This document shows, in pieces, positions 19,965 to 25,989 of a DNA stretch of 64,000 nucleotides; positions within the stretch are counted from its first letter, which is position 1; each line of letters opens with the position of its first letter. The notes below the pieces were generated by a model. It was not told where the DNA came from. It made no database searches and saw only the letters and a list, made by a program, of their open reading frames with translations. Both the position numbers and the translations under genes were made by a program. This DNA is from Hymenobacter busanensis (GTDB lineage: Bacteria; Bacteroidota; Bacteroidia; Cytophagales; Hymenobacteraceae), in assembly GCF_008727865.1 (NCBI RefSeq), contig NZ_VTWU01000001.1, forward strand, positions 806,001 through 870,000, read 5' to 3'.

Positions 19965-22532
19965 TTAGCCGTTGTTGCCGCTGCCTTGTTTTTGGTCGTC
20001 GTTCTGGATGCTCTTCTTCGGCCGAGCGGGGCCGTTATCGAGCTTGCCAAACCGGTAGCTGAAACTCACCCGCAGCTGCCGGTTGTAGAAGTAGGAGTTG
20101 TTCACGTAGTCAAAGCTCGGCGCCGACAGCTCGTTGCGGAACGCCAGCTGGCCGTTAAAGGGGTTGATAACCAGCACCGTCACGTTGGCTTTCTTCTCCC
20201 AAAACTCTTTTTTGGCCCCCAGGCTGTAGATGCGGTAGCCCGAGGTGCGGCCCTGCAAGGCCACCTGCCGCGAGTTGAAAAAGCCGAAGAACTGCGCGCT
20301 CCAGCCTTTTTCAAATTGCCACGACGAGTTCAAGTTCATGTTGAACATGCCCCCGCCGTTCGACAGATTTAGCGCCGGGCTGCTCACCTGCCGGTAGTAG
20401 AAGTTGGCGTTGCCGCTCAGGCTCCACTTCGGCGTGAGCTTGGTCGAGCCGAACGCCGACAAGCCGTAGTTGCTGTTGCGGGCCAGGTTGCGGTAGGTCG
20501 TGTACAGAATGCGCGTGGTGTCGATGGTGGGCAGCAGCTCGTTGCCGGACACCAGCCGCGCCACGCTCTCGATGGCGTTGTTGGTCTGGCGCCAGTAGCC
20601 CGAAAACGTGACCGAGCTTTTCTTCACGAACGTGGTATACGTCAGCTCGTAGGCGTCCGTCAGCTCGGCGTTCAGGTTCGGGTTGCCCGACGACACGTTG
20701 CGGCGGTCGGCGGTGTTCACGTACGGGTTCAGAAACCAGATGCCCGGCCGCTGAATGCGCCGCGAGTAGCTCAGCTTCACGGTGTGGTCGGGCGTCACGG
20801 ACCAGGCCGCCTGCAGGTTGGGCGCCAGGTTGGTGTAGCTGGTGCGCAGGTCGGTGCCGCTGCTCCTAAACTCGCCGCCGATGCGGGTGTGCTCCAGCCG
20901 GGCGCCGCCCTTAAACGTCCACTGCTTGCCCAGTGCAAACCCGTAGGATGCGTAGCCCGCGTACACGTTTTGCTCGTAGCGAAACTCGTTGGAGCGCGCC
21001 GGCACCGGCAGGTAGCCGCGCCCGTCCAGGCTATCGGCCTCAATGCGGTAGTCGCTGTCGACGTGGCGCAGAATGGTTTTCAGGCCGGTTTCCAGCGTTT
21101 GGGTGCTGTCGACGGGGTGCACGTAATCGGCCTGCAGCGTGATTTCGCGGTTGCGGTTGTCGTTGTGGCTTTTCTCGCGGTAGTCATTCACCTCGCCGCG
21201 CTGCTGGTCGAGCTGGTAGCGCTGCCGGCCCACGTTCACGCTGTACAAACCCAGCACGCTCAGCTCCTGCCGGGGCTTGGCCAGTGTTTTGGTGTAGCCG
21301 AAGTTCACGTCCACGTTGCCGTTGCCGTCGTGGGTATCGATGTCGCGGTTGTAGGCGTCCAGAAACAACCGCCGCTGCGTGCCCTCTTCGGTGCGAAACA
21401 GCTGGTAGCTGGTGTACTGCGACCGGTCGTTCAGAAATCCGCGGTAGTTGCCCTGCACGCCCAGGGTCAGCAGGTCCTTCGGCGTCAGGTCGTAATCGAG
21501 GCCGAGCTGGCCCCACATGCCCCAGCCCGAATTGCGAAACCTACCATTCTGGGCTAGTTGGCTCTGGGTAGTGTCGGTCAGGAAATCGGTGCGCCGGGCC
21601 TCGCTGCGCGCCAGGTTGAAGAACGGATTCACGCCCACCCCACTGTTGAGTCCGAGCTTCCCGCGCCGCCGGTTGAAATTGCCGTTGACGAAGGCGTTGC
21701 GGTTGCTGATGCCGGCATTCGTATTGCCGTTCATGCCCTCCACGGTGTTCTTCTTCAGAATAATGTTCACCACACCCGCCGTGCCCTCTGCGTCGTACTT
21801 CGCCGACGGCGCCGTAATGACTTCCACCGATTTGATCTGGTCGGCCGGAATCTGCTTCAGGGCCTCGGCCAGGTTGGTAGCCAGCAGGGTAGAGGGTTTG
21901 CCGTTCACCAGCACCCGAATGTTGGAGGAGCCGCGCAGCTGCAGGTTGCCTTCCAGGTCCACCGTCAGCAACGGCGCCTTTTGCAGCACGTCGGCGGCCG
22001 TGCCGCCGCTGTTGGTCAGGTCTTTTTCGGCGTTGTATACGAGGCGGTCCACCTTGCTTTCTACCAAGTCCCGCTCGCCTACCACTTTCACCTCGCCCAG
22101 CTGCTGCACGGTGGCTGCTAGTAGCACCGGCGGCAGCTGCCGCACGGGCTCGGCAGCCGTTACGGCCACGGCTACCCGCTGCGGCTGGTAACCCACAAAA
22201 CTGACCACCAGGATGTAGTCGCCCACAGGTACGCCCGCCAGCACAAATTCACCCTGCGCGTCGCAGGTGCCAGCCAGCACGGCCTTCTCGCTGCCCGCGG
22301 CCAGCAGGGCCACCGTGGCAAACTCCACCGGCTGCCTGGTAGCCGCATCCTGCACCCGGCCCATGAGGCGGCCGGCTGCTTTGGCCGAGGTCGTGCCGGC
22401 GGGCGTCGGCGTCTGGGCCATCAGCGGCGCGCTGGCTCCCAGTAGCAGGCTCAGGGCCACGCCGGCGGCGCAAGCGGCGGTAGGGCAGGGCAGCCACGCA
22501 ATCGGCTGGGCAAGGGTAAAGTCTGCTTTCAT
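19965..22532 (-). CDS. TonB-dependent-receptor-like outer membrane protein (first copy)
   Basis: About 855 residues. A signal peptide is followed by a carboxypeptidase-regulatory-like beta-sandwich (about 55-140, GRVQDAATRQPVEFATVALL...), then a plug domain (VLQKAPLLTVDLEGNLQLRGSSNIRVLVNGKPS; KSVEVITAPSAKYDAEGTAGVVNIILKK). A 22-strand-type barrel of the OMP_b-brl_3 family runs to an aromatic C-terminal strand (LRVSFSYRFGKLD) and a polar Asn/Gln tail. No TonB box was identified by eye. The substrate is unknown. The palindrome TACGAA-N4-TTCGTA lies 12 bases before the ATG at 22532 and would be inside the gene if the longer reading from 22589 were used, which favours the shorter start. It shares architecture and operator motif with the gene at 22839-25334. 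Confidence 0.9.
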   Translation of the reverse strand: MKADFTLAQPIAWLPCPTAACAAGVALSLLLGASAPLMAQTPTPAGTTSAKAAGRLMGRVQDAATRQPVEFATVALLAAGSEKAVLAGTCDAQGEFVLAGVPVGDYILVVSFVGYQPQRVAVAVTAAEPVRQLPPVLLAATVQQLGEVKVVGERDLVESKVDRLVYNAEKDLTNSGGTAADVLQKAPLLTVDLEGNLQLRGSSNIRVLVNGKPSTLLATNLAEALKQIPADQIKSVEVITAPSAKYDAEGTAGVVNIILKKNTVEGMNGNTNAGISNRNAFVNGNFNRRRGKLGLNSGVGVNPFFNLARSEARRTDFLTDTTQSQLAQNGRFRNSGWGMWGQLGLDYDLTPKDLLTLGVQGNYRGFLNDRSQYTSYQLFRTEEGTQRRLFLDAYNRDIDTHDGNGNVDVNFGYTKTLAKPRQELSVLGLYSVNVGRQRYQLDQQRGEVNDYREKSHNDNRNREITLQADYVHPVDSTQTLETGLKTILRHVDSDYRIEADSLDGRGYLPVPARSNEFRYEQNVYAGYASYGFALGKQWTFKGGARLEHTRIGGEFRSSGTDLRTSYTNLAPNLQAAWSVTPDHTVKLSYSRRIQRPGIWFLNPYVNTADRRNVSSGNPNLNAELTDAYELTYTTFVKKSSVTFSGYWRQTNNAIESVARLVSGNELLPTIDTTRILYTTYRNLARNSNYGLSAFGSTKLTPKWSLSGNANFYYRQVSSPALNLSNGGGMFNMNLNSSWQFEKGWSAQFFGFFNSRQVALQGRTSGYRIYSLGAKKEFWEKKANVTVLVINPFNGQLAFRNELSAPSFDYVNNSYFYNRQLRVSFSYRFGKLDNGPARPKKSIQNDDQKQGSGNNG

Positions 22533-22543
22533 GGCAAGGTCGG

Positions 22544-22559
22544 TACGAATTTTTTCGTA
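22544..22559. promoter_or_regulatory. Operator copy A, TACGAA-N4-TTCGTA
   Basis: A perfect 6-4-6 palindrome, TACGAA TTTT TTCGTA, 12 bases upstream of the first receptor ATG. It is the same motif as at 25388-25403 and 25411-25426. Confidence 0.75.
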
Positions 22560-22713
22560 TACTCTGAGCGACGATTCACGCATGGTCACTGACCGAATGG
22601 CAAAAGGTTACAGGAAGCGTGGGTAAATGCGGGCGGCGCGGGTCACTGGCGCACATGCTCGAAGCGGAATCAAGGCCAAAGACCAGCGAAAATCAGCCGC
22701 GCTGCACTAAGAC

Positions 22714-22729
22714 AACGAAAAATTTCGTA
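22714..22729. promoter_or_regulatory. Operator copy B, one mismatch
   Basis: AACGAA AAAT TTCGTA: the same 6-4-6 palindrome with A in place of the first T, 182 bases upstream of the first receptor ATG. It may be an auxiliary site for the same regulator. Confidence 0.6.
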
Positions 22730-22838
22730 TTACTGGAATATGGCCTGATTGTCAATGGAATAAATAATTGCAGTGCGCTATCGAGGCCGCCCTACGAACC
22801 AACAGTCCGTACGGCGGCCTCAATGATAAGGACTGGGC

Positions 22839-25334
22839 TTAGTTGCCGCCGGCGCGTCGTTTCTCGTCCTCGGCACCACCGCCACGGCGTTTGGTCGGCG
22901 CCACTTTGTCGTTGCCGAAGCGGTAGCTCAGGGCCAGCGTCACCACCCGCGACTCGTAGCGCTGGTAGAAGCGCTCCACGTAGTTGTTGAAGGTCACCGT
23001 CGACCGGTTTTTGTTGGTGAAGAATACGTCCGTTGCATTCAGTTTCAGGGTGGCCTTGTTATGCCACAGACCTTTCTGCACCCCTACTGATACCTGCCCC
23101 TGCGGCCGGCTCACGAAGTACGCGTAGCGGTTCTTCGAGTCGTAGCTCGCGTTCAGGTCCGCCTTCCAGTCGTGGCCCAGCACGAAGGTGCTGTTGCTGC
23201 TTAGGTTGAAGGCCGGCCGACCGGCATTGAGCGACGTGCCGGCCAAATCACCCACAAACCGGGTGTAGTAGAACACGGCATTGTTGTACACGTTCCACCA
23301 CTTGGCCAGCTCCACCGGCGCCGTAAGCGTCAGGGCGTAGTTGTATTGGCTGTCCAGGTTTTGGGAAGTCGAAACCACCACGCGGCCGCCCTCCGGCGCG
23401 GGCTGCACCGTGCCCACAATGGGGTTGGCCGTTACGGCGTAGCTCACCCCGATGCTGTATTTCTGCGCCAGCGTATGCGTCAGCTCGACGTTGTAGCTGG
23501 TCTGCGGGCGCAGCTCCGGGCGGCCTTCGCCATACGTCGTCACGTCAATGTAGCTTCGGAACGGGTTCAACTGCCCGTAGGAAGGCCGGTCGATGCGCCG
23601 GCTCAGCGACAACGAGGTTTCCTGCTGCTCCGAGAAGGTGTGCTTGACGGCCGCGCTCGGAAACAGCTGGAAATAGTGGCGGTCGAAGTTGGGGTCTTTG
23701 CCCGGCTGCACCACGTCCTGCTTGCCCACGGCATTGGTTTGCTCGCCGCGCAAGCCGGCCTGCAGCGTCCATTTGGGCAGGGTCTGGTTGAAGTTGACGT
23801 AACCGGCCACAATGTTTTCGTCGTAGCGGAAGCGGTTGGAGCGCAACGGGTCGGGCTTCAGCACGTCCACATTGCCGGGCGTAACCGGAATGCGGAAGTC
23901 CAAATCATTGTCGGCCGCCACCCAGCTAATCTTGCCGCCGGCCTCCAGACGGGCCGTCTTGCTGAGCGGCCGCGTGTAATCGGTTTTGAAAGACTGAATG
24001 GTCAGCAGGTTGTGCTGATCGACGGTAAGGCGGTCCGCCGATGCGGTGGGGAACGTGAAGCGCGTATCTAGCAGCTGCCCGCGGCGCGAGTCGTAGCGGG
24101 CATAGTCAGCGTCGGCCGACAGCTCGTGCAGGCCCAGTGAATCCTTAAATGTGTGGCGGAAGTTGGCATTGGCCGAGACGTTCGGCAGGTTGCCGTCGCG
24201 AATGTTGTCGGATTGGTATCGGCTTGTGGTGGCACCCTCCGCGGTATATAGCTCCGAGTCGTTGCTGCCCTTGCTGTCGGTTTGGAGCGCCAGCCCGTTG
24301 GCCACTACGCCCACCGTGGTGCGCTCCGTCAGGTTGTAGTCGAGGCCCAGTTTCCAGTTGTGCGAACGGCCGTGCCCAACGCCGTTGTTGTCCTGGAAGG
24401 AACGGCCGACGAGGGTTTTTACGCCGTCGGGGTATTCGTAGAATTCACGGTTGATGGTCAGCGCGTTCCAGTTGCGCCGCTCGGCGAAATTATACGTCCC
24501 AAACAGATTCAGCTTCTGGCGGCGGTGGTTGAGCGAGAGGCCCGCGGTGAACTTGCCGTAGCGCCCGTAGCCGTAGCTGGTATTCACCGAGCCGTTGGTG
24601 CCCAGCTTCTGGTCTTTCTTGAGGTTGATGGCGATAATGCCCGCACCGCCCTGCGCGTCGTACTTGGCGGGCGGGTTGGTGATGAGCTCGATGCTCTTGA
24701 GCTGGTCGGCGGGCAGGGCGCGCAGGTAGTCGGCCAGCTCGGTGCCGCTCATGGGCTGGCGCTTGCCGTCGATGAGCACCAGCAGGCCCTGCCGCCCGCG
24801 CAGGGCCAGGTTGTCGTTGCCGTCCACCGTCACGCCCGGCGAGCGGCGCAACACATCCAGCGAGGTGTTGCCCGCCGCCAGGGTCGAGCCTTCCACGTTC
24901 ACCACCGTGCGGTCGGCCAGGCGCTCAAATTGCGGCTTCTGGCCCACCACCTGCACTTCCTTTAGCTGCGTGGCCGCACTGGCCGCCAGCCGTAGCACCG
25001 GCACTTGTACCTCGCCGCCTGCCACATCGAATCCGGCCGACCAAGCCCGCGCAAACCCCACCTGCGCCGCCGACACCAAATAGCGCCCGGCCGGGGCCTG
25101 CTCAAACCGAAACACGCCTTTTTCGTCGCTGAACTCCGTCTTCACCACCGTCGAGTCGGCGGCGCGGTGGAGCGTCACGGTGGCAAAGTCCACGGCTGCG
25201 CCCGCCGCGGCCACGCTGCCGCTGACGGTGCCCCGCGTTTGGGCTTCGCTGCTGAAGCTGGTAGTGGCCAGCAGGGCTGGGGTCAGGAACAAGGCCGCCG
25301 AAAGCGGCCGGAAAGGGGTAAACAGCGTTTTCAT
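22839..25334 (-). CDS. TonB-dependent-receptor-like outer membrane protein (second copy)
   Basis: 831 residues. Signal peptide (MKTLFTPFRPLSAALFLTPALLATTSFSSEAQ), carboxypeptidase-regulatory-like domain (about 35-120, GTVSGSVAAAGAAVDFATVTLHR), plug domain (VLRRSPGVTVDGNDNLALRGRQGLLVLIDGKR; LKSIELITNPPAKYDAQGGAGIIAINLKK), then an OMP_b-brl_3 barrel ending LALSYRFGNDKV with a short basic tail. It differs markedly in sequence from the first copy but shares its order of domains. Two tandem operators and a promoter lie 54-100 bases upstream. The MarR gene is the next gene upstream on the same strand. The ATG at 25334 was chosen as the start of the signal peptide. The substrate is unknown; iron or siderophore and peptide uptake are both possible. 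Confidence 0.92.
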   Translation of the reverse strand: MKTLFTPFRPLSAALFLTPALLATTSFSSEAQTRGTVSGSVAAAGAAVDFATVTLHRAADSTVVKTEFSDEKGVFRFEQAPAGRYLVSAAQVGFARAWSAGFDVAGGEVQVPVLRLAASAATQLKEVQVVGQKPQFERLADRTVVNVEGSTLAAGNTSLDVLRRSPGVTVDGNDNLALRGRQGLLVLIDGKRQPMSGTELADYLRALPADQLKSIELITNPPAKYDAQGGAGIIAINLKKDQKLGTNGSVNTSYGYGRYGKFTAGLSLNHRRQKLNLFGTYNFAERRNWNALTINREFYEYPDGVKTLVGRSFQDNNGVGHGRSHNWKLGLDYNLTERTTVGVVANGLALQTDSKGSNDSELYTAEGATTSRYQSDNIRDGNLPNVSANANFRHTFKDSLGLHELSADADYARYDSRRGQLLDTRFTFPTASADRLTVDQHNLLTIQSFKTDYTRPLSKTARLEAGGKISWVAADNDLDFRIPVTPGNVDVLKPDPLRSNRFRYDENIVAGYVNFNQTLPKWTLQAGLRGEQTNAVGKQDVVQPGKDPNFDRHYFQLFPSAAVKHTFSEQQETSLSLSRRIDRPSYGQLNPFRSYIDVTTYGEGRPELRPQTSYNVELTHTLAQKYSIGVSYAVTANPIVGTVQPAPEGGRVVVSTSQNLDSQYNYALTLTAPVELAKWWNVYNNAVFYYTRFVGDLAGTSLNAGRPAFNLSSNSTFVLGHDWKADLNASYDSKNRYAYFVSRPQGQVSVGVQKGLWHNKATLKLNATDVFFTNKNRSTVTFNNYVERFYQRYESRVVTLALSYRFGNDKVAPTKRRGGGAEDEKRRAGGN

Positions 25335-25387
25335 AGTCAGAAAGGGAGCGAGAGGGAGTGCAGAAGCGGTGGGAGGAGGAAAAATCA

Positions 25388-25403
25388 TACGAATGATTTC
25401 GTA
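25388..25403. promoter_or_regulatory. Operator copy C, TACGAA-N4-TTCGTA
   Basis: TACGAA TGAT TTCGTA, a perfect 6-4-6 palindrome just downstream of the -7 box of the second receptor gene, where it would cover the transcription start. Confidence 0.8.
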
Positions 25404-25404
25404 G

Positions 25405-25435
25405 TAAACGTACGAACAGTTTCGTATTTTCAAAA
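25405..25435 (-). promoter_or_regulatory. Promoter of the second receptor gene
   Basis: On the minus strand a -33 element TTTTG (25431-25435) is followed after 18 bases by TACGTTTA (25405-25412), one base off the TAnnTTTG -7 consensus. Operator D lies between the two elements and operator C lies just downstream, the geometry expected for repression. Confidence 0.6.
25411..25426. promoter_or_regulatory. Operator copy D, TACGAA-N4-TTCGTA
   Basis: TACGAA CAGT TTCGTA, a perfect 6-4-6 palindrome between the -33 and -7 elements of the second receptor promoter; its centre is 23 bp from that of copy C, about two helical turns. Confidence 0.8.
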
Positions 25436-25497
25436 GCTTAGTTGAATTTTGAATTCAGTAGGGCGCCAAGACTCTACACAGGTGGTCGATTCAGCGT

Positions 25498-25950
25498 TTA
25501 GGGCTGCGCAAGAAGGTTGGCGGCAGGTTGGGCACAGTTCAGCGAAATACGGTCGAGAAGCTCCCGCAGCAGGGCTTGGTCGGTATCACTCAGGCCGCTG
25601 AGCGCCTGGTGGCGGTTGCTGAGCACGATGGGTTGCACGGCTTCCAGAATCTGGTGGCCGGCTTCGCTCACCCGCAGCTTGGTGCGGCGCCCGTCGTGGG
25701 GCAGCGGCACGGCGGAGAGCAGCCCCCGTTGGGTAAGCAGCGCCAGGATGCGGGCCACCGAGGCTTGGTCCTTGAACACGCGCTCGGCAATTTCGAGCTG
25801 GGTGAGGTCGTCGTGCTCCAGAATTACGCGCAGCACCAGCCACTGGTCGATGGTGATGGGAATGCCGGCCCGGTCGATGTTGGCCTGGGCAAAGCGCCGG
25901 TAGCTACGAATGGCCTTGTCGAGCGAGTAAAACAGGATGGAGGAAAGCAT
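25498..25950 (-). CDS. MarR-family transcriptional regulator
   Basis: 150 residues. The winged-helix core is clear: ITIDQWLVLRVILEHDDLTQLEIAERVFKDQASVARILALLTQRGLLS (helix-turn-helix and recognition helix), then the wing PLPHDGRRTKLRVSEAG with the conserved D-x-R-R. N- and C-terminal helices form the dimer interface. MarR proteins bind 16-20-bp palindromes as dimers and are released by small ligands or oxidation. It lies upstream of, and on the same strand as, the two outer membrane receptor genes, and is the obvious candidate to bind the TACGAA-N4-TTCGTA sites (inference). A different palindrome (25976-25989) precedes its own start. The ATG at 25950 is preferred to an in-frame TTG at 25971. 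Confidence 0.93.
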   Translation of the reverse strand: MLSSILFYSLDKAIRSYRRFAQANIDRAGIPITIDQWLVLRVILEHDDLTQLEIAERVFKDQASVARILALLTQRGLLSAVPLPHDGRRTKLRVSEAGHQILEAVQPIVLSNRHQALSGLSDTDQALLRELLDRISLNCAQPAANLLAQP

Positions 25951-25975: not shown

Positions 25976-25989
25976 TATGATATATCATA
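25976..25989. promoter_or_regulatory. Perfect palindrome upstream of the MarR gene
   Basis: TATGATATATCATA, a perfect 14-bp palindrome, 26 bases before the MarR ATG and directly followed (minus strand) by GTCTTTG, a possible off-consensus -7 element. A likely autoregulatory operator; it differs from the TACGAA-N4-TTCGTA motif. Confidence 0.55.

Follow-up and report, generated by a model that had tools for sequence, protein, structure and literature searches.

The closest described systems are the BlaI/MecI repressors of Staphylococcus and Bacillus with their partners BlaR1/MecR1, which combine a PF03965 repressor, an adjacent M56 protease and an operator-type site at the repressor's own gene; all three recur in the system described here. 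Steric repression and release through M56 cleavage, as proposed below, are taken from the BlaI/BlaR1 scheme in PMC7593790. According to PMC7253601, the CopY/CopR copper repressors have a 16-bp operator, RNYKACANNTGTMRNY, that can be read as 6-N4-6. Here we analyzed a 64,000-nucleotide stretch of Hymenobacter busanensis DNA (contig NZ_VTWU01000001.1, positions 806,001 to 870,000; hereafter the window), in which copies of the palindrome TACGAA-N4-TTCGTA lie upstream of two outer membrane receptor genes that sit beside a MarR-family gene. A preliminary description made from the sequence alone had assigned these copies to the MarR protein. Comparison across genomes indicates instead that the palindromes at both receptor genes are very probably docking sites of a distant BlaI-type repressor, not of the neighboring MarR. 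The copies, located by motif search, and the receptor genes are as follows.

22544..22559: copy A, a perfect TACGAA-N4-TTCGTA separated from the receptor 1 ATG by 11 bases
22714..22729: copy B, one mismatch
25388..25403: copy C, perfect, directly following the receptor 2 -7-like element
25411..25426: copy D, perfect, between the -33-like TTG and the -7-like element
25405..25412, minus strand: -7-like element TACGTTTA, read by eye, sharing the last TA of copy D
25431..25433, minus strand: -33-like TTG, read by eye
19965..22532, minus strand: receptor 1, 855 amino acids, PF14905 outer membrane beta-barrel with CarboxypepD_reg and Plug
22839..25334, minus strand: receptor 2, 831 amino acids, PF14905 outer membrane beta-barrel with CarboxypepD_reg and Plug

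Much of the preliminary description holds. All four copies, three perfect and one with a single mismatch, were recovered at the coordinates and with the N4 spacers it gave; copy D does lie between the -33 and -7 elements and copy C just past the latter, their centers 23 bp apart; and domain matches confirm the receptor families (PF14905 barrel, CarboxypepD_reg and Plug) as well as the MarR identity. The distance from copy A to the receptor 1 ATG, counted there as 12 bases, is 11. Its view that the copies look like protein-binding palindromes, conserved at both receptor promoters and belonging to a small regulon, is also borne out.

Allowing two mismatches, the window contains five matches, compared with a mean of 0.89 in shuffled sequences, and 1 of 100 shuffles reached five. 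Scanning the whole genome, as the preliminary description had suggested, showed the motif to be rare: since the 4.89-Mb genome has five perfect copies and no match to a reversed control pattern, the three within 2.9 kb are not due to chance. With up to one mismatch, 11 motif matches stand against 5 for the reversed control. Six copies in the genome have one mismatch; that at C6:179585 is within a called gene and was taken to be a chance match. Across the genus (eight genomes), 55 perfect copies and no control match were counted. Fifty-two of these copies are in extracted loci, with 43 different N4 sequences and none inside a gene as called from codon usage, and the other three are the window's own. 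The receptor 2 site pair, 23 bp apart, stands between marR and receptor 2 in all eight genomes, and the A-B pair recurs at a distance of 158 to 173 bp in the five where receptor 1 lies beside receptor 2. Copy B is also 109 bases beyond the receptor 2 stop codon. A site is also present at the receptor 1 homologues of G003 and G004, far from the MarR orthologue.

The other genome copies point to the reader. Contig C4 carries, unlinked to the window receptors, a gene for a PF03965 (BlaI/MecI-type) repressor (C4:320542-320880; E value, 1.7e-23). It has one perfect and two one-mismatch copies in a row just upstream of it and is followed in line by the gene for an 848-amino-acid M56 metalloprotease and then by a DUF5916/CBM9 gene. 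Because copies sit at this blaI-M56 operon, we favor BlaI over MarR as the protein that would read the motif. In all eight genus genomes the BlaI orthologue is preceded by a three-site array of the same composition; G005 has two further BlaI-M56 pairs, with two and three perfect sites. BlaI_A matches the solved BlaI and MecI chains 1sd4 and 1okr; its best match is 2g9w, deposited as a conserved hypothetical protein, which we take to be mycobacterial BlaI. Inspection of the C4 sequence by eye shows the zinc motif HELAH in the M56 partner. A Pfam scan of its 848 amino acids at E values up to 0.001 returned M56 and M48 and no penicillin-binding sensor domain, which makes sensing of the BlaR1 kind improbable.

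Promoter architecture at the two kinds of locus is shared. Read by eye on the minus strand, the receptor 2 promoter runs from TTG through an 18-nucleotide spacer that holds most of copy D to TACGTTTA, and then to copy C; the Bacteroidota -7 consensus is TAnnTTTG. Among 13 compared receptor 2 promoters, all of them chosen for a perfect site pair, the -7-like element reads TAYGTTTR in 11 and a TTG occupies the -33 place in 10, being absent in L043, L044 and L047. The blaI promoters of the genus have the same layout, with a third site upstream.

A family set of 60 genomes, including the eight of the genus, allowed the association to be tested at an orthologue cutoff of E up to 1e-15. BlaI orthologues are present in 54 of the 60 and in 46 of the 52 outside the genus, and there perfect sites occur in 45 of the 46 genomes with BlaI and in none of the six without it (Fisher P = 3e-7, uncorrected for relatedness, the six BlaI-less genomes coming from two genera and one of them, G039, being 78% complete). 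The genome with BlaI and no perfect site, G048, has two one-mismatch sites at blaI. We inspected 61 of the 62 BlaI matches in the family, all but G046:C10 (32% identity), 49 of them as distinct genes in 50 extracted loci (one gene occurring twice) and 10 by coordinates. Upstream, 56 have a perfect site and 60 a site with no more than one mismatch, and the remaining match, L123, has three two-mismatch variants.

The pattern extends beyond the family. In a set made up of the best 80 of at least 528 relatives among named genomes, a perfect site lies within 220 bp upstream of blaI (199 bp in L210) at 64 loci and a site with at most one mismatch at 77, compared with 0 of 468 control windows, mostly coding, taken downstream in the same loci at the one-mismatch level. 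An M56 match follows blaI in 79 of the 80; the exception, L205, has about 450 bases left after the start of the match. The set includes Hymenobacter, Pontibacter, Rufibacter, Chitinophaga, Runella, Spirosoma, Marinifilum, Mucilaginibacter and Saprospiraceae, along with metagenome-assembled genomes (MAGs) labeled Aminicenantes, Oligoflexales and Stygiobacter.

Recognition helices and operators also vary together in part. Ordinary members of the subfamily carry the helix GYTTTLK. The family outlier L123 has RYTTTLK, and its sites are two TACGAT-N4-ATCGTA and one TACGAG-N4-ATCGTA. In L119, L121, L128, L223 and L224, YTSTLK follows an N or H and goes with a lopsided TACGAA-N4-TTCCTA; these TTCCTA-ended sites might reflect changed specificity. 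Covariation of helix and operator thus appears partial, some variant helices going with variant sites and others not.

From site positions, conservation, co-occurrence with BlaI, autoregulatory placement, the M56 neighbor and this partial covariation, we infer binding, repression and cleavage as follows, and assign a probability of about 0.92 to the reading that copies A to D are operators of the C4 BlaI/MecI-family repressor, that the window receptors belong to its regulon, and that they are repressed by it and released by M56 proteolysis. BlaI dimers would bind TACGAA-N4-TTCGTA; at receptor 2, a dimer on copy D, within the promoter spacer, and another on copy C, directly beyond the -7 element, would exclude RNA polymerase. 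An envelope signal would activate the M56 protease, which would cleave BlaI, and loss of the repressor would turn on the blaI operon, both receptor genes and a small number of additional envelope genes. As a BlaI-type reader is paired with a membrane protease, the probable trigger for both receptors is an envelope signal relayed by proteolysis. MarR is probably an autoregulator that uses a different box, and read-through from its gene may contribute to receptor 2 expression.

Other candidate targets can be read from the genes nearest the 55 perfect copies of the genus: BlaI in 13 cases, receptor 2 in 16, receptor 1 or a homologue in 7, a third receptor locus in 8, a PF00144 beta-lactamase-family protein in 5, an unclassified protein in 3, an S41 peptidase in 2 and a malate:quinone oxidoreductase in 1. 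The targets of the sites at L060 (PF00144) and L065 (S41) are uncertain, since these sites lie between divergent genes. A DUF4097 gene is preceded by two one-mismatch copies 22 bp apart (C3:327108 and 327130; L018:6109-6146), and G020 has a perfect site before a DUF2807/DUF4097 gene (L136), which suggests that the two belong to the same target class. In relatives, PF00144, S41 and DUF2807/DUF4097 genes stand next to sites as candidate targets, a list that fits an envelope response. G020 further contains three perfect sites in a row (L135:2725-2796) with no BlaI-like gene called beside them; the row lies between a 432-amino-acid gene and a gene resembling a response regulator by eye. The matches at G043:C19:37390 and G024:C19:20488, too, lie inside called genes.

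A third PF14905 receptor in this genome also has a perfect copy nearby (C3:654864). Across the corresponding loci (L049, L054, L055, L057, L058, L059, L064 and L017), a conserved element resembling AGTACCTTGC-NNN-ACAAAGTACCT lies between the TACGAA site and a small CarboxypepD_reg gene, and is apparently the box of another regulator.

Several observations weigh against the BlaI reading or narrow it. At the third receptor locus the sites are about 500 to 600 bp from the next called gene in the genus, so direct control is less clear there than for receptors 1 and 2. An envelope response accounts less well for the single sites beside amidohydrolase and oxidoreductase genes. In the 52 genomes outside the genus, 25 reversed control matches stand beside 92 motif matches, and single sites away from blaI therefore need care. 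The 80 named loci were chosen by peptide patterns drawn from the recognition helix and the stretch following it, so they describe a BlaI subfamily and not all BlaI. Within them, L217, L219 and L226 lack a site though their helices look ordinary, and two Chitinophaga BlaI, L186 and L193, have the helix QYTSTLK yet an ordinary site. By coordinates, no perfect site lies near the PF03965 genes G002:C13, G006:C11:779254 and G005:C11:881705, nor near a weak PF03965 match at G005:C33; the first three likewise imply that the motif marks a BlaI subfamily and not every BlaI. TACGAA-N4-TTCGTA differs from the published BlaI/MecI core, TACANNTGTA, given in PMC7253601. Finally, MarR is beside receptor 2 in 13 of 14 receptor 2 loci, loci that were themselves reached through MarR or through the sites.

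That last association bears on the two explanations involving MarR, for which two further features are needed.

25498..25950, minus strand: MarR-family regulator, not considered the reader of copies A to D
25976..25989: TATGATATATCATA, a box in the marR promoter, probably the autoregulatory box of MarR

The proposal that survives best is an addition to the BlaI reading and not an alternative to it: BlaI would read copies A to D, and MarR would control marR itself and, by read-through across a 163-bp gap, part of receptor 2. We consider this slightly short of an even bet. A box lies upstream of marR in all 13 MarR loci, as exact TATGAYRYRTCATA in nine, with one end base changed in three and both changed in one (L137); in the genus alignment, TATGAYATRTCATA or a sequence close to it is common to all eight marR promoters, and exact TATGANATNTCATA occurs once in the H. 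busanensis genome, in the marR promoter. Over the 60 genomes, the exact box pattern gave 15 matches compared with 13 for its reversed control, so lone matches elsewhere mean little, and 4 of the 47 genomes without MarR (G013, G018, G040 and G050) contain matches as well. The case for the box stands on its position upstream of marR, not on rarity. Joint control of receptor 2 would also suit the co-orientation of marR and receptor 2 at the 13 loci where they are adjacent, but inheritance explains that gene order equally well. G011 offers a further point in its favor: MarR lies beside receptor 2 there with no TACGAA site within three mismatches, a second MarR-type box precedes receptor 2 in the gap where the BlaI sites are missing, and the blaI of the same genome has three perfect sites. 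It looks as if one regulator had taken the place of another at this promoter.

The original proposal, that the adjacent MarR binds copies A to D and controls both receptors according to an imported ligand, has in its favor that the MarR orthologue stands beside receptor 2 and the site pair in all eight genus genomes and, outside the genus, in four of the five genomes that carry MarR. We now regard it as very improbable, and the analysis gave no support to import by the receptors of a ligand that MarR senses. The marR promoter has another conserved palindrome, and at the MarR loci checked no TACGAA site with one mismatch or fewer lies at marR's own promoter. Co-occurrence, which the preliminary description had put forward as a check, gave no association: at a cutoff of E up to 1e-12, MarR orthologues are present in 5 of the 52 genomes outside the genus, all from one genus, and perfect sites occur in 5 of 5 genomes with MarR and in 40 of 47 without it (Fisher P = 1.0), so that 40 of 45 site-bearing genomes there lack MarR. 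Locus by locus, G028 has receptor 2 with the site pair and no MarR orthologue at that cutoff, and G011 shows the reverse. The motif follows the BlaI/MecI-type repressor instead, including at 77 of the 80 named blaI loci. Equally improbable is a reading in which copies A to D belong to a different regulator, for instance the second BlaI paralogue (contig C7): this paralogue is a member of the family with a box that likewise spans 16 bp, but C7-type proteins (eight such PF03965 matches in the genus) have a different helix, AYNTVST, and their own box, AACTAA-N4-TTAGTT, in 8 of 8 aligned genus promoters (L012 and L021 to L027), with an extra upstream TTAGTT in seven, and the candidate was rejected.

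Returning to BlaI, we lean towards a broader proposal, held with distinctly less confidence than the assignment in H. busanensis: that a GYTTTLK-helix BlaI subfamily with an M56 partner (the single partner scanned had no beta-lactam sensor domain) reads TACGAA-N4-TTCGTA across much of Bacteroidota (a few MAGs being labeled otherwise) and switches surface receptors and envelope enzymes through regulated proteolysis in response to an envelope signal. Assigning a genome-scannable operator to a widespread Bacteroidota BlaI-M56 module would make regulons predictable in many genomes and would link outer membrane receptors to a repressor-protease switch. The locus is also a caution that a regulator gene beside a motif need not be its reader. 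Among the top-ranked titles and abstract openings of the open-license literature, no Bacteroidota BlaI operator was found and nothing pointed to the TACGAA palindrome, which is weak evidence of absence. For mycobacterial BlaI, PMC12565901 presents the motif as a figure.

Set beside known systems, the arrangement combines familiar parts in a different way. The CopY/CopR operator spans 16 bp, as here, with different core bases, and CopY, according to PMC7253601, answers to metal through CXC motifs and not through a protease. BlaI_0696 and BlaI_1845 of Clostridium thermocellum, as portrayed in PMC8457756, resemble the present case in their small, tightly defined regulons, ordered site arrays, autoregulation and a blaR1 gene in the operon; BlaI_0696 differs in using GTCTAT inverted repeats five nucleotides apart and in its targets. 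MarR-family autoregulators have their parallel in the marR gene here, with a 14-bp palindrome in its own promoter, and that box, TATGAYRYRTCATA, differs from the TACGAA-N4-TTCGTA palindrome. Compared with BlaI/MecI, the half-site is TACGAA here and of the TACA type there, and the predicted targets here are PF14905 receptors; compared with BlaR1/MecR1, a penicillin-binding sensor domain was not found in the M56 partner scanned here. A BlaI operator of noncanonical sequence is, on these comparisons, a well-supported prediction.

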